Under the pieces are notes generated by a model. The model saw nothing but the letters and a program-made list of their open reading frames with translations. It did no database searches and was not told the DNA's origin. Positions 179 through 34,570 of a DNA stretch of 34,828 nucleotides are shown piece by piece. This DNA comes from Acidimicrobiia bacterium. GTDB taxonomy: Bacteria; Actinomycetota; Acidimicrobiia; Spongiisociales; UBA5794. Both the position numbers and the translations under genes were made by a program. Position 1 is the stretch's first letter. Every line of letters starts with the position of its first letter. The stretch covers positions 1-34,828 of the forward strand of contig JASJCF010000010.1 of the NCBI GenBank assembly GCA_030066265.1, given 5' to 3'.

Positions 179-1963
179 TCAGCTTCCGGCTTCGACCATC
201 TCGTCGCCGTCTTCGCTGCCGTCGCCTTCGCCTTCGACCAACCCGCAATCGGCTTCGGCTTCTTCGAGGGGCTGGCCACCGAACTGCACCCGCTCGTACA
301 GGGCGACTGCGGCCAGCTGCTCATCGGTGAGATTCCCGAACGCCGGCATGTTGCCGCCGCCTCCGACAGGCTTGTTCGTCGCGCCGTAGGTGTCATCCGG
401 CCATCCGGACGTGCCCAATCGGATCCACTCGACGTGCTCGTTGCACGTACCGGTGGGGAAGGTGGCGAGGACCGCTCCACCGGTGAACGCCGGCCCGACA
501 CCACCTTCGCCGTTCCCACCATGGCAGGCGACGCAGCCGCTGTACTGGCCGCTCCCGAGAGCCAGGAAGTCGACGCTCGATGATCCGTACTCGGAGCCGT
601 CGCAGTTGACGGCGAGGCCAGTGGCCTCATCGATCCTCAGCTGACCGGCAACTCCGCAGTCGGGGCCGTTCGGAGTGACCAGGATGTAGGTCACGGCGAG
701 GATGGGGATGATGACGAAGGCCGCGGCGAGCCATGCCGGGTATCCACGCGAACGCGATCCCTCATCGTCGTCCGTCTCGGATTGCGGCTCGCTATCGGCG
801 GGTGCTGTTCCTTCGATCACCTCGATCTCGGGGACATCCTCAGTGGCGGCGGCCGGTGCTGCTGCCGGTGCTTCGGGTGTCGGTGCTTGCGCAGCGGGCG
901 CGCCCGAGGCCGCTGGCGCGACCGTCGCAGGGTCGACCCCTGCCCATTCGGCGAGGACGGCTTCGAGTGGCTCCCCGGTCTTCTTCGCCCGGGCCTCCGC
1001 GGATCGTTTGGCGATGGGTGCCGGCATGCCCTTGGCTTCGGCGACCTTGTCGAGCAGTTCGTCCATCGACATCGCCCCCGCCGCTCCGGCGGCGGCAGTC
1101 GCTGCAGGAGCAGAGGATGGCTCAGATGCCGCCGGTTCGGACGCCACAGGTGTCGACGACGATTGCTCGGGCTCGGTTGCCGAGACCGCAGACGGATCGA
1201 CCCCTGCCCATTCGGCGAGGACGGCTTCGAGTGGTTCCCCGGTCTTCTTCGCCCGGGCCTCTGCGGATCGTTTGGCGATGGGTGCCGGCATGCCTTTGGC
1301 TTCGGCGACTTTGTCGAGCAGTTCGTCCATCGACATCGCCCCCGCCGCTCCGGCGGCGGCAGTCGCTGCAGGAGCAGGGGATGGCTCAGATGCCGCCGGG
1401 GCCCCTGCATCTTCTGAGTCGACGGGCTCGGGTGTTCCGGGATCTGGCGTTCCGGGATCTGGCGTTGCAGGCTGCGATGTCGCAGTGGTCTTCGAGTCGG
1501 CGGGTTCGACGTCCGGAACGGGAGCGGTGCCGTCGGCAACCTGCTTGGAGAGCTCGTCGAGATCGACGCCGGCCCAGGATGCGAGCACGGTGTCGAGGTC
1601 GGTGTTCGAGTTGCGTGCACGAGCCTCAGCCGACGAACGCACGAGCTTGGGCGGCATGCGCTTCGATGCGGCTGCGAGGTCGACGAGGTAGTCGGTCGTC
1701 ACCTCGTCCGGTGCGCCGGTCGCAGGAGCGTCCGCTGCCGGAGCATCGGAATCGGATGTCTCGGATTCGGCTGCCTCGGGTTCGGGTGCCTGCCCCTCGG
1801 CCGCCTGCGGCTCGGGGGTGGACCCGACGTCCTCGCCTGCCCACTCGGCGAGGACGGCCTCGACCGTCGTCCCCTCCTTCTCGGCTCGCGCCTGTGCGGA
1901 CCGTTCCGTCAGCGCCGGTGGCATCCCCATCTGCTCGGCAGCCCGTTTGAGCAGGTCATCCAT
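179..1963 (-). CDS. Membrane-anchored monoheme c-type cytochrome with four N-terminal copies of a ~45-aa helical module ('MPxxlxkRSAEARAkktGexlEaVLAeWAGvD') separated by Ala/Pro/Glu-rich linkers
   Basis: 594-aa ORF; TM 'YPAWLAAAFVIIPILAVTYILV'; CVACH heme motif at 521-535 (minus strand); downstream 'NMPAFGNLTDEQLAAVALY' typical of cytochrome c Met-ligand region. Confidence 0.9.
   Translation of the reverse strand: MDDLLKRAAEQMGMPPALTERSAQARAEKEGTTVEAVLAEWAGEDVGSTPEPQAAEGQAPEPEAAESETSDSDAPAADAPATGAPDEVTTDYLVDLAAASKRMPPKLVRSSAEARARNSNTDLDTVLASWAGVDLDELSKQVADGTAPVPDVEPADSKTTATSQPATPDPGTPDPGTPEPVDSEDAGAPAASEPSPAPAATAAAGAAGAMSMDELLDKVAEAKGMPAPIAKRSAEARAKKTGEPLEAVLAEWAGVDPSAVSATEPEQSSSTPVASEPAASEPSSAPAATAAAGAAGAMSMDELLDKVAEAKGMPAPIAKRSAEARAKKTGEPLEAVLAEWAGVDPATVAPAASGAPAAQAPTPEAPAAAPAAATEDVPEIEVIEGTAPADSEPQSETDDDEGSRSRGYPAWLAAAFVIIPILAVTYILVTPNGPDCGVAGQLRIDEATGLAVNCDGSEYGSSSVDFLALGSGQYSGCVACHGGNGEGGVGPAFTGGAVLATFPTGTCNEHVEWIRLGTSGWPDDTYGATNKPVGGGGNMPAFGNLTDEQLAAVALYERVQFGGQPLEEAEADCGLVEGEGDGSEDGDEMVEAGS
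929..1398 (-). repeat. 264-bp-period (88-codon) tandem duplication within the cytochrome c gene; near-identical ~200-bp cores at about 933-1135 and 1197-1399
   Basis: Both copies encode SMDELLDKVAEAKGMPAPIAKRSAEARAKKTGEPLEAVLAEWAGVDP; 'cccctgccca' occurs at 937 and 1201 (offset 264). Confidence 0.9.
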
Positions 1964-1969
1964 TCGCGA

Positions 1970-3871
1970 TCACCTCAGCGTCTCCAGGTAGCTCACGAGA
2001 GCGGCGAGCTCGTCGGTGGAAAGGTAGGAGTAGGACGGCATCGTCGACCACGGCATCACCGATCGCGGATTCTCGAGGTGCGCCTGGACGAGAACACGGT
2101 CGAAGAAGTCGGCCCTGCCGGCGAAGTGCATGAGGTCGGGCCCGAGGCGGTATGTGCCGAGCAAAGCGGGACTCTCGTTCGCATAGTCGCCGGCGATGGA
2201 CACCGGCCCGAGCCCGACGTCGGTGCCCACCGGGCGGACGGCCTGGGTGTGGCACGACACACACCCCTCGGAGATGTAGAGGTTGCGCCCCGTGAGCTCC
2301 ACCGTTCCCGCTCGATAGGTGCGGTCGGTGTCTGCGAGCAGGGTCGAGTCGCGATCGGCATTGTCCGCCACGGGCAGTACCAGCATCATGAGTGCAGCGA
2401 ACAGCCACACGCCGACGGAGCCCCACATGAGGCGACGCCAGCTGGCGTAGCGAGGTGTCCCCTCGAATTCGAGATCGTATGGCCGCTCGGCCGGGGGCAT
2501 GTCCAGCGCTTCGTCGTTGCGCCGGCCCAGCGTGGCAACGAAGGCAATCTGTCCCAAGAAGAAGATGGCCATGCCCACTGCCATCAGCCATGCAAAGGGT
2601 TCGAATGTCTCCGCAGTCACCTTCCATGCCGCACCGGCGTTCGCATAGGACTGGCTGGCGGGCCCGACCGCCCACGAGAATCCCACGGCGATCCCCCCGA
2701 TGAGCCCACCGAGCGTCATCACGGCGAGGCCCACCGTGGAGAGGACACCGTGCGCTGTGCGGGCGAGCGAAGAGCCGCCCCGCATGACACTCACCGCTGC
2801 GAAGAGTGCGAATGAGCAAGCGCCGAGCACCGTTGCGAACCACGCAGTGTCGACCCACGGCGAGTACTGGATGATGGTGCTCGTGCCTCGCCATGCCCAC
2901 AACAGGAGCACCACGGTTGCCGTGGCGAATGCAGATCCCGCGATGAGGATGAGCCTCAGGGACACGCGGTCCCCGATGAGGTGGATCCTGCCTCGCAGCA
3001 TCAAGCCGATGTCCCCGGCGATGGTGAGCAGGGGAACCAGAGCGGCGATTGCGAAGGCGATCGAGATCGTCTCGTACCAGTCGGGTACCGGCGTGAAGAT
3101 CAACGGAACCGCACCGAGATTCGCCCAGACGATCGTGAGCGACCAGAAGCCGAGGGCGGCCAGGGATCTCGTCTCGGTCGGGTCACCGTCCGAGATCGCC
3201 GCCACCACGTAGTAAGTCAACCCGACGGCCGAGGTGACGAGGAACAGACCGGTGAACGTCGAGCTGACGAAGCTCGCCTGGATGACTCCCGGGATGCCGT
3301 CAGAGCCGGGGATGAGCCCGACGATGGCCGATGCCGTCAGCCAGATGGGTGCAGCCGTGAGATACCAACCCGCTGCACCGAGCTTGTCTCCCTTCTGCCG
3401 GGCCATGCCGACGAGCGCAATGGCTGCGAGGAGGAAGCCAACCGTCGTGATCGCACGAGCCCACAGGGGTGCTTCGAGCCTCACCACGCCGGTCTGGAGC
3501 CCGAAGAGGATCGCCGCACCGCCGCCGAGGACGCCGACGGCGATCAGCGCCAGGGATCCGTACGCCAATGAGGTGCGCTGGTGGGCACCCGTGATACGTC
3601 CGAGCGCCCAATAGGAAGCGCCGAGCAGCCCGATCGTCAACCAACCCACCTCGATGAACAGCCTCGCTGCGGGTGCCATGCGCCCGTATGTCGTCGCTGG
3701 AATCCCGCCGAGGAAGTCGGGGAAGACGAGCTGGAACGATGCCAGAGAAGCGAGGAGCGTGCCGATCACGAGGAAGATGGCAGCCACGATGAGGTGGGCG
3801 CGGGTGGGGCTGGTGCTGTCGGAGTCCGAGGCGGATTCGGTCGCTTCGGTCGGCGAGGCTTCGGCGGTCAC
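1970..3871 (-). CDS. CcoN-like heme-copper oxidase subunit I homologue (canonical His ligands apparently absent) fused to a CcoO/FixO-type cytochrome c domain
   Basis: CcoN-like segments 'GRMAPAARLFIEVGWLTIGLLGASYW', 'GFWSLTIVWANLGAVPLIFTPVPDWYETISIAFAI'; CcoO-like C-terminus 'GRNLYISEGCVSCHTQAVRPV...YRLGPDLMHFAGR...HLENPRSVMPWSTMPSYSYLS'. CVSCH at 2249-2263. Start set at GTG 3871 preceded by AGGAGG; the ORF extends to ATG 3949. Confidence 0.8.
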   Translation of the reverse strand: MTAEASPTEATESASDSDSTSPTRAHLIVAAIFLVIGTLLASLASFQLVFPDFLGGIPATTYGRMAPAARLFIEVGWLTIGLLGASYWALGRITGAHQRTSLAYGSLALIAVGVLGGGAAILFGLQTGVVRLEAPLWARAITTVGFLLAAIALVGMARQKGDKLGAAGWYLTAAPIWLTASAIVGLIPGSDGIPGVIQASFVSSTFTGLFLVTSAVGLTYYVVAAISDGDPTETRSLAALGFWSLTIVWANLGAVPLIFTPVPDWYETISIAFAIAALVPLLTIAGDIGLMLRGRIHLIGDRVSLRLILIAGSAFATATVVLLLWAWRGTSTIIQYSPWVDTAWFATVLGACSFALFAAVSVMRGGSSLARTAHGVLSTVGLAVMTLGGLIGGIAVGFSWAVGPASQSYANAGAAWKVTAETFEPFAWLMAVGMAIFFLGQIAFVATLGRRNDEALDMPPAERPYDLEFEGTPRYASWRRLMWGSVGVWLFAALMMLVLPVADNADRDSTLLADTDRTYRAGTVELTGRNLYISEGCVSCHTQAVRPVGTDVGLGPVSIAGDYANESPALLGTYRLGPDLMHFAGRADFFDRVLVQAHLENPRSVMPWSTMPSYSYLSTDELAALVSYLETLR

Positions 3872-3971
3872 GCTCCGGTGGTCCTCCTGAGCGGCGTGGC
3901 ACGGTCTTGACGTTGGCCTGCGCGACTCTAGCCGCCGACCGATCGCCAACCCTCATCTGTGAAAGCGCGTG

Positions 3972-4087: not shown

Positions 4088-4678
4088 ATGCACGTGACAG
4101 AACGGATGCAGTTGTGGGCCGGCCTCGGTCTGATCCTCCTGGGGACGATCGTCTCGATCGTCGGAGGGTTCCTCGTCCACACCGCAGAGGCTCCGGAGTT
4201 CAACGAGTTCGGCCAAGCCATGTTCGAGGGCTTTCCCCGGGGATGGATACCGGCCCTCATCGCCCAGATGATCACGCTCGGCGGCGTCCTCATGGCAATG
4301 GGCGGGGTGTTGCTGGCCTTCGTCTACGGCAAGCCGCTCACCTGGGCGAGCGCGATGATCGGGGCTGCGCTGTTCACCGGCCTCATGTTCATCATCTTCG
4401 CCATCATCCCGAACCAGATGCTGACGCTCTTCCAGGGCACCCTCGACTGGAACGCAAACCGCATCCTGATCACCGTCCCGCCCGCCCTCGTCCTCGGCAA
4501 TGAGGTGGCGATCTCGTATTCGGCTGCCAAGGACATGATCGTTGCCGGGTATGTCACGACGGCGTTGATCGTCGTTCCCGTGGCCATGTACCAGTGGCAG
4601 GGGCGCCAGATGAAGAAAGACGAGCCCAAGCCCGAGCCCGTCTCGAGCTATGGCCGTCCGATGAGGAACGGTGGCTGA
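4088..4678 (+). CDS. Conserved-looking multi-TM membrane protein, first gene of the ferredoxin/cytochrome b/Rieske operon; function unknown
   Basis: About 4 TM segments; starts at ATG 4088 or 4106; stop overlaps the next start (TGATG). Confidence 0.75.
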   Translation: MHVTERMQLWAGLGLILLGTIVSIVGGFLVHTAEAPEFNEFGQAMFEGFPRGWIPALIAQMITLGGVLMAMGGVLLAFVYGKPLTWASAMIGAALFTGLMFIIFAIIPNQMLTLFQGTLDWNANRILITVPPALVLGNEVAISYSAAKDMIVAGYVTTALIVVPVAMYQWQGRQMKKDEPKPEPVSSYGRPMRNGG

Positions 4679-5121
4679 TGGCAAAGGAAGTCTGGCTCGA
4701 GACACCTCCGATCCGCGACGATTACCAGCTCGCGATGGTCGACACCTCGTACCTCGAGGCCGCCGTGAAGCCGAAGCAGTTCATCCACATCGACGAGGCG
4801 GAGTGCATCCTGTGCGCAGGCTGCGTCGACATCTGTCCGTGGAAGTGCATCCACTTCCTCGACCCGGACATCGTCTCCGAGACGTTCGGCGTGGAGAATC
4901 CGGCGGACAAGGAAGAGAATGGGGCACTGTTCCTCATCGACGACACCGAGTGCACGCGATGCAAACTGTGTGTCGACCGGTGTCCCACGAATGTGATCAC
5001 GATCGGCAAGTTCGCAGGCTCGCTCGCCGAGCAGTCCGGCGAATTCGACGAAGCGCCCTGGGAGTACGAGACGGGTCATCGAGACGACAAGAACGGTTAC
5101 AGCTACGGCGTGCGCTGGTAG
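4678..5121 (+). CDS. 2[4Fe-4S] ferredoxin-like protein
   Basis: CILCAGCVDICPWKC and CTRCKLCVDRCPTNV motifs. Confidence 0.92.
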   Translation: MAKEVWLETPPIRDDYQLAMVDTSYLEAAVKPKQFIHIDEAECILCAGCVDICPWKCIHFLDPDIVSETFGVENPADKEENGALFLIDDTECTRCKLCVDRCPTNVITIGKFAGSLAEQSGEFDEAPWEYETGHRDDKNGYSYGVRW

Positions 5122-5136
5122 ACAAACGGAGACGAG

Positions 5137-5916
5137 TTGGCTGACGACAAAGGCACAGCAACCCGGGTGAGAGAGTCCGTGTCCGGACTCGGCGATCACA
5201 TCCGGAACTCACAGGTGTGGACGTCGATCTTCCGGCCCGGCTCGCCCATGCGGGCGGACGGGGGCGATTCGCCGAGGAACCGCGCCTACGTGGTGATGAA
5301 CAACGTGCTGTATCACCTCCACCCGGTCAAGGTGAAGCGCCACGGCGTGAAGCTGTCCTACACCCTGTGTCTGGGGGGCCTCAGCTTCTTCCTGTTCATC
5401 CTGTTGACGATCACGGGCATCTTCTTGATGTTCTACTACCGGCCGACCTCACCGCAGGCCTACATCGACATGCAGGCCCTCGCCACGGACGTGGCGTTCG
5501 GCCAGCTGGTACGGAACATGCACCGATGGGGCGCCCACATCATGGTGTTGGCCGTGTTCCTCCACATGTCGCGGGTCTTCTACCACGGGGCGTACAAGCC
5601 ACCGCGCGAGTTCAACTGGGTGGTCGGAATCATCTTGTTGCTCCTGACCCTGTTGCTGTCGTTCACCGGCTACCTGCTCCCGTGGGACCAGCTGGCGCTC
5701 TGGGCAGTGACCGTCGGGACCAACATGGCTGCGTACACACCGGTGTTCGGTGATCAAGTGGAGTTTGCACTCCTCGGAGGAGTGCAGATCACGGCGGACA
5801 CCCTCTTGCGGTGGTACGTGCTCCACGTGCTGTTCCTGCCCTTCATCATCACCATCTTCATGGCCGTTCACTTCTGGCGAGTCCGCAAAGACGGCGGCAT
5901 CTCGGGACCCCTCTAA
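5137..5916 (+). CDS. Cytochrome b (b6-type N-terminal half) of a bc/b6f-type quinol complex
   Basis: TTG start; heme-ligand segments '[39 protein letters not shown]' and '[32 protein letters not shown]'. Confidence 0.93.
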
Positions 5917-5925
5917 GGAGACGGC

Positions 5926-6807
5926 ATGGCAGAGCTACCAGAACATCTCCAGAAGCGGGCGGCCGAGGCACGCGCCAAGGCTTCCGGTACGCCATCCCCC
6001 GATGCCGCTCCTGCTGCGCCTCCATCGGGCAACGGAGCAGCCGGGAACGGATCGGGCGGGAACGGATCGGGCGGCCCGGGTCGAGACCTCGACGCCGAGG
6101 CCGCTCAGTACGGCGTTCCCCGTGCGCTGTTGGAGCGGGCCATGTTCGCTCGAGCCCGCAAGGACGGCACTGCGGTCCCGCAGCTCGTCGGCGCTGGAGC
6201 ACCTGCCGCCTCGGCATCGGCGGGGACCACCGCTGGCGCGGGCTCCACGACGGTCACGACCTCAGCGCCTGCGGGCCCTCCGCCCGGCGTTCGCACCCAG
6301 CGCCTCTTGACGGTCGTCAAGGCCGGTGCGATCCAGGGAACGACGCGAGAGCCCACGGACAAGGTGAACGTGTGGCCGCACCTGCTCGCAATCGAGTTCG
6401 TCGCTCTGCTCGGGATGCTCGCCTTCCTGACGCTCCTGTCGGCGTTCGTCGATGCACCGCTCCTGGAGTTCGCCAACTTCAACGAGCAGCCGAACCCCTC
6501 GAAAGCCCCGTGGTACTTCCTCGGTCTGCAGGAGTTGTTGGCCTACTTCGATCCGATGGTCGCCGGCGTGATCATCCCCGGGTTCGGTCTTGCCGCACTG
6601 GCGTTCATCCCGTATGTCGATCGCAACCCGTCCGTCCGGCCATCGGACCGCAAGCTCGCGATCTCGATCTACACCATCTTCTTCATGGCTGCCGCCGTGC
6701 TCACGATCTTCGGCTCCTTCTTCAGAGGACCCGGGTTCAACTTCACCTTCCCATGGCGTGATGGCATATTCTTCGACGATCTGCTGACGATTCTGGGACA
6801 CGAATGA
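5926..6807 (+). CDS. Cytochrome b C-terminal subunit (subunit IV-like) with an N-terminal extension containing the RSAEARAK-type module
   Basis: Qo-site-like 'NPSKAPWYFLGLQELLAYFDPMVAGVIIPGF'; N-term 'LPEHLQKRAAEARAKASG' and 'LDAEAAQYGVPRALLERAMFARARKDGTAVPQLVGAG'. Confidence 0.9.
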   Translation: MAELPEHLQKRAAEARAKASGTPSPDAAPAAPPSGNGAAGNGSGGNGSGGPGRDLDAEAAQYGVPRALLERAMFARARKDGTAVPQLVGAGAPAASASAGTTAGAGSTTVTTSAPAGPPPGVRTQRLLTVVKAGAIQGTTREPTDKVNVWPHLLAIEFVALLGMLAFLTLLSAFVDAPLLEFANFNEQPNPSKAPWYFLGLQELLAYFDPMVAGVIIPGFGLAALAFIPYVDRNPSVRPSDRKLAISIYTIFFMAAAVLTIFGSFFRGPGFNFTFPWRDGIFFDDLLTILGHE

Positions 6808-7667
6808 CCGGCGCACTCCTCTTCGCGATGATCCTGATCCTCCTTGCGTTGATCTCGGCTGCCGCCGTCGTTGCGATTGCGGCCAGGCGCCAGGACGCCG
6901 ACGGACCCGCAACGGCAGGGGAGTTCGACCGCAGGGCCCAGAAGGCAGATCAGGAACGCAAGAAGGTGGCGGCCACCGTCGGAACAGCGCCCGCGTCCGA
7001 TGCCGTGCCTGCGGAGGATGTCGTCTATGTGCCCGCACCCCACGAGTTCGAGGAAGACGAACCGCGTGTGGAGATCTCATATGACGACTACGGGGTGACG
7101 CGCCGGAAGTTCTTCAACCGAGCAATCGGCGCCGTGTTCGGTTTGTTCATCCTCCAGTTCGCCCTCGCCGGCCTTGCCTTCTTTTGGCCGAAGCTCAAGG
7201 GCGGATTCGGTACGGCGATCAAGGCCGGGTCGGTGTCGAGCCTCAAGGCTCAGGTGATCGACGGCGCAACCGTCACTCCGCTGTTCGTGCCGGCAGCCCA
7301 GGCGTGGCTGGTTCCGTTCGAGGTTTCGAGGCTGCCCGGGAGTTCGTTCGAGGCGACCCCCAACGTTGTCGCGGGTGGTGAGAGCGACGGGATCGGGCTC
7401 ATGGCCCTCTGGCAGAAGTGCGTTCATCTGGGATGTCGCGTTCCCGACTGCGTGTCCTCACAGGGCTTCGAATGCCCATGCCACGGATCGAAGTACAACA
7501 TCTCTGGCGAGTACAGCTCGGGGCCCGCACCTCGCAATCTCGATCGGTTCGCCGTCGCCGTCGATGACGCCGGCGACTTCGTGATCGACACCGGGACCGT
7601 GGTCCAGACGTCCCGAGCCACCACGTTCACTGCGGTGTATCCGCAAGGGCCATTCTGCGTAGGGTGA
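6804..7667 (+). CDS. Rieske [2Fe-2S] iron-sulfur protein
   Basis: Rieske motifs 'CVHLGCRV' and 'CPCHGSKYNISGEYSSGPAPRNLDRF'; two N-terminal hydrophobic segments; overlaps previous stop by 4 nt. Confidence 0.95.
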   Translation: MTGALLFAMILILLALISAAAVVAIAARRQDADGPATAGEFDRRAQKADQERKKVAATVGTAPASDAVPAEDVVYVPAPHEFEEDEPRVEISYDDYGVTRRKFFNRAIGAVFGLFILQFALAGLAFFWPKLKGGFGTAIKAGSVSSLKAQVIDGATVTPLFVPAAQAWLVPFEVSRLPGSSFEATPNVVAGGESDGIGLMALWQKCVHLGCRVPDCVSSQGFECPCHGSKYNISGEYSSGPAPRNLDRFAVAVDDAGDFVIDTGTVVQTSRATTFTAVYPQGPFCVG

Positions 7668-7671
7668 TCTG

Positions 7672-9300
7672 TTGACAGCATTCTCCATCATCGTCGCCGT
7701 CGCCGAGGAGACCGAGCCGGTCGACTCCGCCGGCGGCCTCGGCATCGGCGCACTCGCCCTGCTCATCGCCGTGGCCCTGATCCTCGGGCTGATGGGCTGG
7801 CTGTTCGTCAACTCCCGTCGTTCCCGCGCCTCGTCGTCGGAGGCGGCGCCCCCCAACCAGTCGCCTCCCGCATCCGACGACGAGCTCGAGAACACGAAGC
7901 TGACCAAGATCCTCCGTGCGGCGCTCGTCGGGGCGGCACTCTTGGCGATCGCCCTTCCGTGGTACGCGGCCAACGAGCCCGACCGCCAGGCCGAGGCCGC
8001 AGTCGCCATCGAGGAGCTCGACATCGAAGAGGGAGGCCACTGGTTCTCCACGGAGGGCTTTGGTTGCGCCGATTGCCACGGACCTCTCGCCGGTGGCGGT
8101 GCCGCCGCGTACACCGAGGAGCGATCCGGCGTCGAGGTCTCATGGGATGCCCCGGCGCTCGACGACGTCACCTACCGGTATGACGATGAGGAGGTCGAGT
8201 ACTGGATCGTATTCGGTCGAGCCAATTCACCCATGCCGGCAAACGGTCTCGAAGGCGGAGGCGCCATGACCGTGCAGGAGGTCGACCAGACCATCGCGTG
8301 GATCCGGTCGGTGCAGGTCAGCCAGGCCGATGCCTTCGCCAGGGCCGTACCGGACGCGGAGGCCGCACTCGCCCGGATCGAAGGTGGCGAGCTCGCCACG
8401 GTCTCCCTGATCAACGTTCAGCAGGGCAAGATCGACGAGGTGAAGGCTGCGCCGGCCCAATTCGAGGTCGTCGGGGGCTTCCCCGAGGAAATCAAGGATC
8501 TGTTCCAGGCCGACGGGACCTGCACGGACGAGACCGCTGAGCTCATCGGAGCGACCTGTGGCCAGCCCGGTCCGGATAGTGACCGAGATGGTGTCAGCGA
8601 CCCTGTCGAGAAGGAGTTGACGGCCATCGCCGCAGTCTCCATGGAGACGATCAGGGTCCGTGTGTGTGCCACTGAGCCTTCCGAAGAAGGAGAGCCGCCG
8701 AATCCGGTGACCTGCACGTTCCAGCCGAACCCGCTCTACGACGTTCGGTTCGACCCGTTCATCGCCTTCACCAATGAGACGCCGGAAGGCCCCGTACCGG
8801 ATCTCGTCACGGCCGAGGAGCTCCTTGATCACCTCGAGACCGACGTACTTCTGTTGGGCGTGACCACCGAACGGCAGATCCAATTCCTCGGTGAGTTGGC
8901 GCCCGGTCTTCAGTTCCTCGAGCAGGCGCTCATCGATCAGCCGTGGCAGGTCGACTTCGATCAGGTGGCAGCGGACATGGGCGTGTCCCTGGATGACGCG
9001 AAGCTGGCCGTCGGGCTGTACAACTCGCAGTGTGCTCGATGCCATACCGGCGGATACAGCGCCGGCCCGGCCTTCGAGCAGGGAGCCGGATCCGGCGCCA
9101 TGGGCCCTGCGCTGTGGGAGGGACGCTCGGTCGTTCAGTTCCCGGACATCGAGGATCAGATCTCCTTCATCATCACGGGATCTCAGAATGCCGTGGGCTA
9201 CGGGGTCAACGGCATCGGACGCGGCTGGATGCCCGGATTCGGCAACGTCCTGTCAGCCGAGCAGATCGAACTGATCGTCAAGTACGAGAGGACGCTGTGA
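7672..9300 (+). CDS. Membrane-anchored diheme c-type cytochrome of the bc complex operon
   Basis: TTG start; two TMs; CADCH (8065-8079) and CARCH (9031-9045) heme motifs; internal 'DSDRDGVSDPVEKEL' calcium-binding-like motif. Confidence 0.9.
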   Translation: MTAFSIIVAVAEETEPVDSAGGLGIGALALLIAVALILGLMGWLFVNSRRSRASSSEAAPPNQSPPASDDELENTKLTKILRAALVGAALLAIALPWYAANEPDRQAEAAVAIEELDIEEGGHWFSTEGFGCADCHGPLAGGGAAAYTEERSGVEVSWDAPALDDVTYRYDDEEVEYWIVFGRANSPMPANGLEGGGAMTVQEVDQTIAWIRSVQVSQADAFARAVPDAEAALARIEGGELATVSLINVQQGKIDEVKAAPAQFEVVGGFPEEIKDLFQADGTCTDETAELIGATCGQPGPDSDRDGVSDPVEKELTAIAAVSMETIRVRVCATEPSEEGEPPNPVTCTFQPNPLYDVRFDPFIAFTNETPEGPVPDLVTAEELLDHLETDVLLLGVTTERQIQFLGELAPGLQFLEQALIDQPWQVDFDQVAADMGVSLDDAKLAVGLYNSQCARCHTGGYSAGPAFEQGAGSGAMGPALWEGRSVVQFPDIEDQISFIITGSQNAVGYGVNGIGRGWMPGFGNVLSAEQIELIVKYERTL

Positions 9301-9806
9301 TGAGCTCATCCCTCGCCCGTCGACTTCGCTCCGAGGAATCCGGCCTCTCCACCCTCGAGTGGATCGGCATCGTCGCCTTCGTGCTCGCGATCCTGGCGAT
9401 GATCCCGCCCATTCGGGAAGCCGCCATCGAAGCGACCGGCGTCGTGTTCAACCAGCGTGATCCCGACACCGGGGAGCTCTCGGACTTCTCGGTGGCGATG
9501 CGTGGATTCGGCATCGCGCTCGGATCCATCATCGTCTTCGTCGGGACGGGATTCTTCCTGCTCTACACCAACGTGGGCCGCCGCCTCGCCTTCCTCCTCA
9601 CCGGAGCCGCGGTCTTCGGCTGGCTGGTGATCAACGGCATCCTCTTCGTCGTCTACGCACCCCGGGGTATCCGGCCTGAGAACCTCGAAGGCCTCAATGC
9701 CTTCCAGATCCGCCTCCCCGCCGTGGCACTGACGCTCGGATCGCTCGTGCTGTTCGCCATGTTCATCGTCGCCCTGAATCGCTACGAGGCGGATACTGCT
9801 GAGTAG
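9300..9806 (+). CDS. Multi-TM protein with class III (Flp/Tad) prepilin-like N-terminus
   Basis: 'RSEESG-LSTLEWIGIVAFVLAILAMIPP' followed by three further hydrophobic segments; ATG overlaps the previous TGA (ATGA). Confidence 0.75.
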   Translation: MSSSLARRLRSEESGLSTLEWIGIVAFVLAILAMIPPIREAAIEATGVVFNQRDPDTGELSDFSVAMRGFGIALGSIIVFVGTGFFLLYTNVGRRLAFLLTGAAVFGWLVINGILFVVYAPRGIRPENLEGLNAFQIRLPAVALTLGSLVLFAMFIVALNRYEADTAE

Positions 9807-10720: not shown

Positions 10721-11341
10721 TCAGACGCGAGCCAGGTGATACGCGAGGATGCCCAACTCGGTCGACAGGTCGACACGGCGCACCGACACGTCCTCCGGCG
10801 TCTTGAGGACGACGGGTGCGAGGTTGAGGATGGACTTGACACCGGCGCCCATCAGCCGATCAGCCACGTCTTGGGCTGCCGACGGGGGGGTCGCGATGAT
10901 GCCGATGGAGATCTCGCGATCTTCGACGATCGCACCGAGGGCATCGAGTGGTTCGACGAACAGACCGTTCACCAACGTGCCGAGCTTGGCGTCGTCGACA
11001 TCCACGATGGCAGCGATCTCGAATCCCCAGTTCTCGAAGCCCCGGTAGTTGGTGATCGCCTCCCCCAGATTCCCAGCGCCGACGATCGCCACACGATGGA
11101 TACGGGTCATCCCGAGGACCTCCCGGATCTGGGCCATGAGGTCGTCGATGTCGTAGCCCACGCCGCGCGTTCCATGGCTCCCGAGGAAGCTCAGGTCCTT
11201 TCGCACCTGCGCAGCCGTGACGCCCGCCCCTTCGGCGATCTGATCCGACGAGCACTGGGTCGCAGTGGGAGCCATGTCGGAGAGACACCGAAGGTATCGA
11301 GGGAGTCTGGCCACTGTCGCAGAGGGAATCGTTCCCTTCAT
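10721..11341 (-). CDS. rex: Redox-sensing transcriptional repressor Rex
   Basis: 'ATVARLPRYLRCLSDMAP...TSDQIAEGAGVTAAQVRKDLSFLGSHGTRGVGYDIDDLMAQI' winged helix and 'VAIVGAGNLGEAITNYRGFENWGFEIAAIVD' Rossmann fold. Likely start ATG 11341; ORF extends to 11431. Confidence 0.95.
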   Translation of the reverse strand: MKGTIPSATVARLPRYLRCLSDMAPTATQCSSDQIAEGAGVTAAQVRKDLSFLGSHGTRGVGYDIDDLMAQIREVLGMTRIHRVAIVGAGNLGEAITNYRGFENWGFEIAAIVDVDDAKLGTLVNGLFVEPLDALGAIVEDREISIGIIATPPSAAQDVADRLMGAGVKSILNLAPVVLKTPEDVSVRRVDLSTELGILAYHLARV

Positions 11342-11429
11342 CGGCCGAACAATAGGAGCGCTGTGCGCGTCCGAATCGTCACGCCCCGGGATTACCGACT
11401 CCATTTCTGCCGCCGGTATCCTCTCGTGC

Positions 11430-11852
11430 ATGGAGCTCGCCGACTACTTGCCGATCGCGCTCATGGCGATCCTGGGAGTCGTGTTCGCCGTGGCTTCGAT
11501 CCTCCTCTCTCGAGCGCTGGCTCCGTCGAATCCGACACCGGAGAAGCTGGCCCCGTACGAATGCGGGATCGTTCCCCTCCAGGAGCCCGTTGAACGATTC
11601 CCCGTCAAGTTCTATCTGGTGGCGATGCTGTTCGTGATCTTCGACGTCGAGATCATCTTCTTGTTCATCTGGGCGGTGCGATACGAGCAGTTCGGGTGGG
11701 CCGGCGTTGCGGCCGTCGTGCTGTTCATGCTGATGCTCATCGAGACCCTCGCCTATGTGTGGAAGCGTGGTGCGCTCGACTGGAACGTGGCTCGCCGAGC
11801 CAGGTACCGCCGGATCGTGGCGCCCGAACCCGAGCTCGAGGAGGCAGCCTGA
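11430..11852 (+). CDS. nuoA: NADH-quinone oxidoreductase subunit A
   Basis: '[41 protein letters not shown]'. Confidence 0.96.
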
Positions 11853-12337
11853 TGGCCGGAGTCTCGAAGGAGCCGGGATTCCTCGTCACCACCCTCGAGA
11901 AGGGGGTGAACTGGGCGAGGACCAACTCGATGTGGCCCGCCTCGTTCGGCCTCGCATGCTGTGCCATCGAGATGATGGGCACCGGCGCAGCCCACAACGA
12001 CCTCGCCAGGTTCGGCATGGAGGTCTTTCGCGCATCGCCCCGCCAGGCAGATCTGATGATCGTGGCCGGCCGGGTCAGCCAGAAGATGGCACCCGTGCTC
12101 CGGCAGGTGTACGACCAGATGGCGGAGCCCAAGTGGGTGATCTCGATGGGTGCGTGCGCCTCCTCGGGAGGGATGTTCAACAACTACGCCCTCGTGCAAG
12201 GTGTCGACCAGGTCGTGCCCGTGGACATGTATGTGCCTGGTTGCCCCCCGGGACCCCAGTCGCTCATGCACGGCATCTTGAGTCTGCAGCAGCAGATCAT
12301 GGACGGCGAGATTCGCCGCTCGACCGGAGTGCTGTGA
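11852..12337 (+). CDS. nuoB: NADH-quinone oxidoreductase subunit B
   Basis: '[11 protein letters not shown]', '[38 protein letters not shown]'. Confidence 0.97.
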
Positions 12338-33617: not shown

Positions 33618-33648
33618 TTGGGTGTGCCGACTGCGGTGCCGTTACAAT
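33618..33648 (+). promoter_or_regulatory. Candidate promoter for the second nuo operon (TTGGGT-N19-TACAAT)
   Basis: -10-like TACAAT at 33643-33648 about 50 bp before the nuoA2 GTG start; -35 spacing is long. Confidence 0.3.
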
Positions 33649-33698
33649 CGCCTGCGGTTGGCGGTCTACGACCGACACGGGCTCGCGAGGGATATCGG

Positions 33699-34082
33699 GT
33701 GCTGAACCAGTACTACGGCGATTACATCACGGTCGCGGTCTTCATCGGTCTCGGTGGGTTGCTCGTCGCCGGTGCCATCGGAGCGAACAAGCTGATCGCA
33801 CCGAAGGCGCCAGGTGGATTCAAAGACGTCGCCTATGAATCCGGCATCGAGCCCATCGGGGGCGGCTGGAACCAGAGCCACATCCGGTACTACATCTTCG
33901 CCCTGCTGTTCCTGATCTTCGACGTCGAAGCCGTCTTCATCTTCCCGTGGGCGATCCAGCTGGAGTTCTTCGCCGACAACGATCTCGGCCTGGCCGCCCT
34001 CGTGATCATGTTCCTGTTCATCCTGACGCTCGTCGAAGGTCTCGTGTACGCGATCCGCAAGGGTGTGCTCCGATGGGAGTGA
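33699..34082 (+). CDS. nuoA: NADH-quinone oxidoreductase subunit A, second copy
   Basis: '[45 protein letters not shown]'; GTG start. Confidence 0.93.
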
Positions 34083-34570
34083 TCGACAGGTTCGGCGCTC
34101 CGAAGCCGTTGAACTGGGTGCTCAACTGGTCGCGCAAGTACTCCCTCTGGTACTTCCAGTTCGGGCTCGCGTGCTGTGCGATCGAGGTGATGGCGGTGTC
34201 GGGGCCGAGATACGACTTCATGCGGTTCGGCATCGTCCCCTTGCCCGCATCGCCCCGACAGAGCGACCTCATGGTGGTGGCCGGCACCGTCACCGACAAG
34301 ATGGCTCCCGCCATCAAGCGCTTGTACGACCAGATGCCCGATCCGAAGTACGTGATCTCGATGGGATCGTGCTCGAACACCGGTGGTCCGTATTGGGATT
34401 CCTACTCGGTGACCAAGGGGGTCGACCAGGTCATCCCCGTGGACGTGTACGTGCCCGGATGCCCTCCTCGGCCCGAGGCACTGCTCGAGGGCATCGTGAT
34501 GCTCCAAGAGCGAATCCAAGGCGAAGATGTGCAGGAGAAGTGGAGGGCCATCGATGAGCGACGCGCCTGA
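34073..34570 (+). CDS. nuoB: NADH-quinone oxidoreductase subunit B, second copy
   Basis: '[24 protein letters not shown]', '[46 protein letters not shown]'. Confidence 0.96.

Follow-up and report, generated by a model that had tools for sequence, protein, structure and literature searches.

Conserved histidines are the feature by which heme-copper oxidases are recognised. The CcoN subunit of cbb3-type (C-family) oxidases (3mk7, 9g6b, 8smr; TIGR00780) shares with the protein described here its 12-helix fold, its structural Arg, Trp, Tyr and Glu positions and its gene pairing with CcoO; unlike CcoN, however, our protein has neither the six histidine ligands nor the cross-linked tyrosine, and the ligand-less genomes that were checked have no CcoS. 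Single-chain CcoN-CcoO fusions with the same domain order (PRK14485) have been modelled as oxidases, whereas the CcoN half of the present fusion is ligand-less. The actinobacterial QcrCAB-aa3 III2IV2 supercomplex resembles our system in its menaquinol-oxidising bc complex, its cytochrome c with two heme motifs and its aa3 oxidase, yet this obligate supercomplex holds no CcoN- or CcoO-like subunit (PMC8361435); in our system cytochrome b comes as two proteins, b6 and subunit IV, and there are three further parts: a protein derived from cbb3, a partner cytochrome and a shared module. In the alphaproteobacterial CI1-CIII2-CIV2-(cbb3)1 supercomplex (9g83), cbb3, bc1 and another oxidase are found in one assembly, and it is conceivable by analogy that such an arrangement was the ancestral state of the bc/cbb3-derived system reported here; the CcoN chain of 9g83 keeps its oxidase motifs in alignments, unlike ligand-less CcoN. 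Genomes of Acidimicrobiia have been described, from annotation, as carrying caa3- and cbb3-type oxidases (PMC8357290).

The window, that is the whole stretch of 34,828 nucleotides analysed here, carries near its beginning a gene which joins the two cbb3 subunits in a single frame:

1970..3871, minus strand: ligand-less CcoN-CcoO fusion gene (frame open to 3949; likely GTG start at 3869-3871)
2510..3805, minus strand: CcoN-like 12-helix domain (ligand sites, profile alignment, fold comparison)
1973..2452, minus strand: CcoO-like transmembrane helix and mono-heme cytochrome c domain (Pfam; CVSCH at 2249-2263)

In the list of open reading frames the fusion frame runs over 1970-3949 (-) and encodes 659 residues. 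The first-pass annotation had delimited the feature as 2500-3871; the upper end agrees with the likely GTG start and the CcoN-like part is covered, but the CcoO-like part (about 1973-2452) was left outside. Both Pfam matches exceed their cut-offs, COX1 over residues 49-461 (58.7 bits against 34.8, E 6e-16) and FixO over residues 548-649 (80.6 bits against 29.6, E 1.5e-22). Residues 563-567 form a complete heme c motif, CVSCH, and the Met-Pro around residue 637 is retained; the mono-heme CcoO partner expected for a cbb3 oxidase is thus present, and the fusion to an intact CcoO-type cytochrome c was correctly recognised in the first place. The top NCBIfam match of the fusion protein is the CcoN/CcoO fusion family (122 bits, E 2e-35), and with the dedicated ccoN model it scores only 43 bits, the equivalog cut-off being 583. 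Since ligand-bearing relatives themselves reach just 259-307 bits with the same model, this cut-off is a weak criterion.

The homology of the 12-helix part to CcoN is genuine and beyond chance. When the ligand-less family was aligned with nine six-histidine relatives, HHalign returned a probability of 100 and an E-value of 9e-95, ungapped at the ligand sites. The AlphaFold model of the fusion protein (pLDDT 88, pTM 0.90) has the 12-helix CcoN fold, and its closest PDB entries are CcoN chains (TM-score on target 0.83-0.86, rmsd 2.4-3.3), ahead of all others. Profile searches, structure and inspection of the six sites are concordant with the earlier proposal that a heme-copper oxidase fold was kept despite the loss of its ligands. 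Taking the CcoN of P. stutzeri (3mk7, sequence letters from the PDB search) as reference, the replacements in the alignment are as follows, all on the minus strand:

3665-3667, minus strand: A95 in place of H60, ligand of low-spin heme b
3260-3262, minus strand: S230 in place of H207, ligand of CuB
3107-3109, minus strand: V281 in place of H257, ligand of CuB
3104-3106, minus strand: P282 in place of H258, ligand of CuB
2843-2845, minus strand: A369 in place of H345, ligand of high-spin heme b3
2837-2839, minus strand: F371 in place of H347, ligand of low-spin heme b

The alignment made by eye in the first-pass annotation was right at every one of these sites. In addition, the tyrosine of the active-site cross-link (Tyr251 in 3mk7) is W275 in the fusion protein. 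Could the protein nonetheless be an oxidase or a NO reductase, with its ligands misaligned or exchanged for other histidines? The automatic annotation models do give a weak match to cbb3 subunit I, but the CcoN-like domain holds just four histidines (positions 52, 123, 323 and 400), none at a ligand site, several homologues have one or two across the entire domain, the profile alignment runs through the ligand sites without a gap, and CcoS is missing; we regard this explanation as extremely improbable. A misalignment as the source of the missing histidines was ruled out by the profile-profile alignment and by the count of all histidines of the domain. A NOR-type reductase (NorB) was likewise rejected, as no histidine stands at the FeB or heme b/b3 sites and NOR-type sequences branch outside. 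As judged from the alignments, the fold and ancestry are known ones, those of a C-family heme-copper oxidase, and membership among the oxidases fails at every ligand tested.

The family was matched in 121 of the 138 genomes of the host's order. A profile built from 24 members (A1) and searched within the phylum found further matches in the same class, in families f12 (genomes of about 1 Mb with 35-37% GC), f13 and f15; beyond this class the phylum contributed f66, f70 and f96. The f12 genomes, streamlined and marine-type, may be those of Candidatus Actinomarina. We aligned 62 homologues drawn from the order, from the ~1 Mb relatives in the class and from other actinobacterial classes, and all six ligand histidines are absent from each of them (62/62), so that the loss is conserved across the clade, a point on which the earlier proposal had asked for a check. 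All six are present in nine C-family relatives, and relatives of this kind occur in f76, f77, f80, f85 and f97; no intermediate keeping some of the six ligands was seen among the aligned sequences. In a tree from which the ligand columns had been taken out and which was rooted on NOR-type sequences as outgroup, the ligand-less sequences make a single clade with support 95/90, which is most simply read as one ancient loss. Among named genomes, a pattern scan returned only one CcoN match, a ligand-bearing one from Lysobacterales. In one streamlined genome of about 1 Mb (G151) the ligand-less cluster lies on two contigs, L090 and L091, possibly because two strains were binned together.

The ligand-less clade is under purifying selection, with dN/dS values of about 0.05-0.27 for close pairs, similar to those of intact relatives (about 0.02-0.12). 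A decaying pseudogene, an assembly error or a chimera was considered and rejected: full-length frames are open in dozens of independent genomes, the dN/dS values are low and the synteny is conserved, and as nothing in favour of such an artefact was found we give it practically no weight. One might also suppose that the retained bundle of helices is a path for protons or other ions, their conduction or pumping being coupled to the electron flow of the complexes attached to it; redox proton pumps have this fold, and purifying selection maintains it. We nevertheless hold an ion pathway to be quite improbable, because there is no known coupling site without the binuclear centre and because no conserved chain of buried acidic or lysine residues stood out in a non-exhaustive look.

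The fusion gene stands next to the gene of a partner cytochrome, which starts 6 bp downstream of it, and is divergent from a bc cluster:

179..1963, minus strand: cytcA, partner membrane-anchored cytochrome c in a CcoP-like position
4088..4678, plus strand: small membrane protein that opens the divergent bc cluster (no significant Pfam match)
4678..5121, plus strand: ferredoxin-like protein with two 4Fe-4S clusters (Pfam, synteny)
5137..5916, plus strand: cytochrome b6-type bc subunit (Pfam, NCBIfam)
5926..6807, plus strand: subunit IV, the C-terminal half of cytochrome b (Pfam; two copies of the shared module)
6804..7667, plus strand: Rieske iron-sulfur protein (Pfam, NCBIfam)
7672..9300, plus strand: cytcB, cytochrome c with two CxxCH motifs (ORF translation, Pfam)
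9297..9806, plus strand: conserved membrane protein that closes the bc cluster (synteny)

The partner cytochrome cytcA carries one CxxCH, and a weak FixP_N match to the CcoP type was seen in G529 only. With its two CxxCH motifs, cytcB is the kind of cytochrome c found in the bc-aa3 supercomplex. The 2x4Fe-4S ferredoxin-like protein (4678-5121 (+)) is a constant member of the bc operon. It is worth mentioning that cytochrome b6 (5137-5916 (+)) exceeds the NCBIfam ExtP cut-off (305.7 against 290), and automatic annotation may therefore label it a selenite/tellurite-reduction cytochrome; its genomic setting is that of a respiratory bc complex. A gene for a Rex-type redox repressor (10721-11431 (-)) separates the bc cluster from the Nuo operon, and a search for Rex operators gave matches at chance level; second NuoA/NuoB-like copies are present at the end of the window (33618-34570 (+)), the other set being at 11265-12337.

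The order of the cluster (small membrane protein, ferredoxin, cytochrome b6, subunit IV, Rieske protein, cytochrome c with two heme motifs, membrane protein) is conserved. Synteny with the bc operon, which the first-pass annotation had suggested examining, persists: in all 35 ligand-less loci that have a ferredoxin or cytochrome b6 in reach and could be judged, the CcoN-like gene and the ferredoxin-b6 cluster are transcribed away from each other, an arrangement seen in none of 7 ligand-bearing loci. Genomes of the order without the CcoN-like gene have no close cytochrome b6, just paralogues of at most 58% identity or none; in G059, G096 and G100 a close cytochrome b6 occurs without the CcoN-like gene, and there the expected site lies beyond the end of the contig. 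In f66 and f96 the CcoN-like gene is found away from the bc cluster, which counts against a scaffold role, and CcmF-like genes (assigned by eye) are near it in two of four such loci. This brings up the idea of a factor for cytochrome c biogenesis or complex assembly rather than an electron-transfer subunit, in line with which the gene adjoins ResB/CcsB-type genes in G142, G147 and G419 and has CcmF/CcmE-like genes nearby in G529 and G415 (Ccm again assigned by eye). However, genomes of the order, like the ~1 Mb relatives, have structural redox subunits encoded next to the CcoN-like gene, and the CcoO heme motif is retained in nearly all members of the family; a biogenesis function thus appears improbable.

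As for a terminal oxidase, a separate and intact A-type COX1 is encoded in 15 of 16 ligand-less genomes examined, the only one without it being G216, whose genome is 78% complete. Two oxidases, one A-type and one B-type, are encoded on further contigs of the host genome; in the region of the latter (L004:1-1215 (-)) a cytochrome b is fused to a 4Fe-4S ferredoxin-like domain.

A module of about 40 residues, with the consensus LxxAAAxxGxPExLVxRSAEARAxATGTxVxxVLAxWAG and followed by a low-complexity linker, recurs at the N-terminus of several of these proteins and had no significant match in Pfam or among solved structures:

1832-1951, 1565-1681, 1199-1318 and 935-1054, minus strand: four module copies in cytcA
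5926-6024 and 6088-6204, plus strand: two module copies in subunit IV
L154:2266-3357, L155:9310-10503 and L156:5416-6660, minus strand: module-bearing multi-helix proteins near or at the end of caa3 operons

The order of cytcA (module, one helix, cytochrome c) would place the module in the cytoplasm. In nearly all genomes with separate CcoN and CcoO the CcoO-like cytochrome bears the module, L042 being the exception; it is absent from the fused CcoN-CcoO protein and from all other open reading frames of the cluster loci scanned. In a search of eight whole genomes, G181, G119 and G021 proved to have one more bearer of the module, a multi-helix protein whose gene closes the caa3 operon or lies close to its end. 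The full-length form of this caa3-operon protein occurs in families f2, f3, f5 and f8, all with a split, module-bearing CcoO; families f1 and f6, in which CcoN and CcoO are fused, yielded no such protein. In the host genome no module copy was detected outside cytcA and subunit IV, which counts against a scaffold role. Through the distribution of the module, the bc complex is tied at the level of genes to caa3 and to the CcoN/CcoO-like unit.

The carrier attached to ligand-less CcoN is variable. In G147 (L087:5590-7719 (-)) it is fused to a cupredoxin and not to heme c (PF13473, E 7e-9); the residues HN...CxxHPxM of this domain resemble a blue-copper site, CxxHxxM being amicyanin-like, and the gene is flanked by the ferredoxin-b6 cluster on one side and, on the other, by a caa3 operon with ctaC, ctaD and further cta-like genes. 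One CcoN body with different one-electron carriers is thus the behaviour expected of an anchor. On the other side, in G429 a CcoO-like protein beside ligand-less CcoN (L126:4072-4509 (+)) has no CxxCH (EGCWFCAATTQ instead), a loss which counts against the scaffold, and in two related f66 genomes CcoO keeps CxxCH and loses the Met-Pro motif. In most ligand-less families CcoN and CcoO have remained separate genes, and the fusion in this clade therefore looks separate from the PRK14485 fusions.

Among the conserved residues of the body itself are R90, E159, Y246, W269, W291 and R332; for the most part intact CcoN conserves these residues too, and it follows that the frame of the protein was kept while the active site was lost. 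One may wonder whether the emptied pocket was re-used for a quinone, a carotenoid or an otherwise-ligated heme, making the protein an active quinol-handling module that feeds heme c, as the gene adjoins a quinol-oxidising complex and R354 and W426 add to the conserved aromatic and charged residues just named. Most of the conserved residues are, however, also conserved in intact CcoN, no new invariant polar residue appears in the pocket, the top histidine column of the ligand-less set is at most 52% occupied, and the cupredoxin variant, the same body with another carrier, suits a scaffold; re-use of the pocket, the chief rival reading, above all for a quinone, and voiced for quinol in the first-pass annotation as well, seems rather unlikely to us.

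The maturation genes were examined as well. CcoS was found in none of 12 ligand-less genomes versus 4 of 7 ligand-bearing ones (Fisher p about 0.009, an indicative value as the genomes are related), and CcoG, taken as a second marker, gave weak, uninformative matches everywhere. In R. capsulatus without CcoS, the CcoNOQP complex assembles in an inactive form devoid of heme b, heme b3 and CuB (PMC8267372), and a cofactor-free CcoN bound to CcoO is for that reason physically possible.

The role that we infer for ligand-less CcoN, as opposed to its loss of ligands and its conservation, is that of a membrane scaffold, which had been put forward in the first-pass annotation and is the best supported of the readings. 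We consider it rather probable, with real room for error, that this cbb3-derived, cofactor-free protein gives a membrane anchor to a one-electron carrier linking the bc complex with (c)aa3 and does not reduce O2. The protein would have a catalytic cbb3 oxidase subunit as its ancestor and would no longer bind hemes b and b3 or CuB, leaving a presumably metal-free pocket, and its 12-helix body would have been retained as a scaffold in the membrane. There it may position a periplasmic carrier, the fused CcoO heme c together with cytcA, beside the menaquinol-oxidising complex of b6, subunit IV, Rieske protein and cytochrome c. Electrons would then flow from menaquinol through cytochrome b6/subunit IV/Rieske to cytcB, the CcoO heme c and cytcA, and finally to the CuA of (c)aa3, the presumed acceptor, whose genes lie in another part of the genome. 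The module on subunit IV, cytcA, unfused CcoO and the caa3-operon membrane protein may hold the parts together in a putative physical association. It is tempting to go one step further and to view CcoN as an obligatory metal-free bridge in a bc-caa3 respirasome, with interchangeable carriers (heme c or blue copper) and an undescribed module common to both complexes; this wider proposal is tentative, and we lean slightly towards doubting it. A heme-free homologue of a heme-bearing membrane subunit also exists in CydB, beside CydA; CydB has another fold and belongs to another superfamily.

No earlier report of a clade-wide ligand-less CcoN was found in the open-access full-text literature, a search which may miss subscription papers; what is new here is the clade-wide distribution, the module linking bc and caa3, the cupredoxin variant and the missing CcoS. 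Annotation of these proteins as cbb3 oxidase would wrongly assign a high-affinity oxidase to the organisms. If the scaffold role is true, a respiratory oxidase fold can persist for structure alone across long evolutionary time, and the link between bc and caa3 would become testable for a large group, most of it uncultivated, to which streamlined genomes of about 1 Mb belong.
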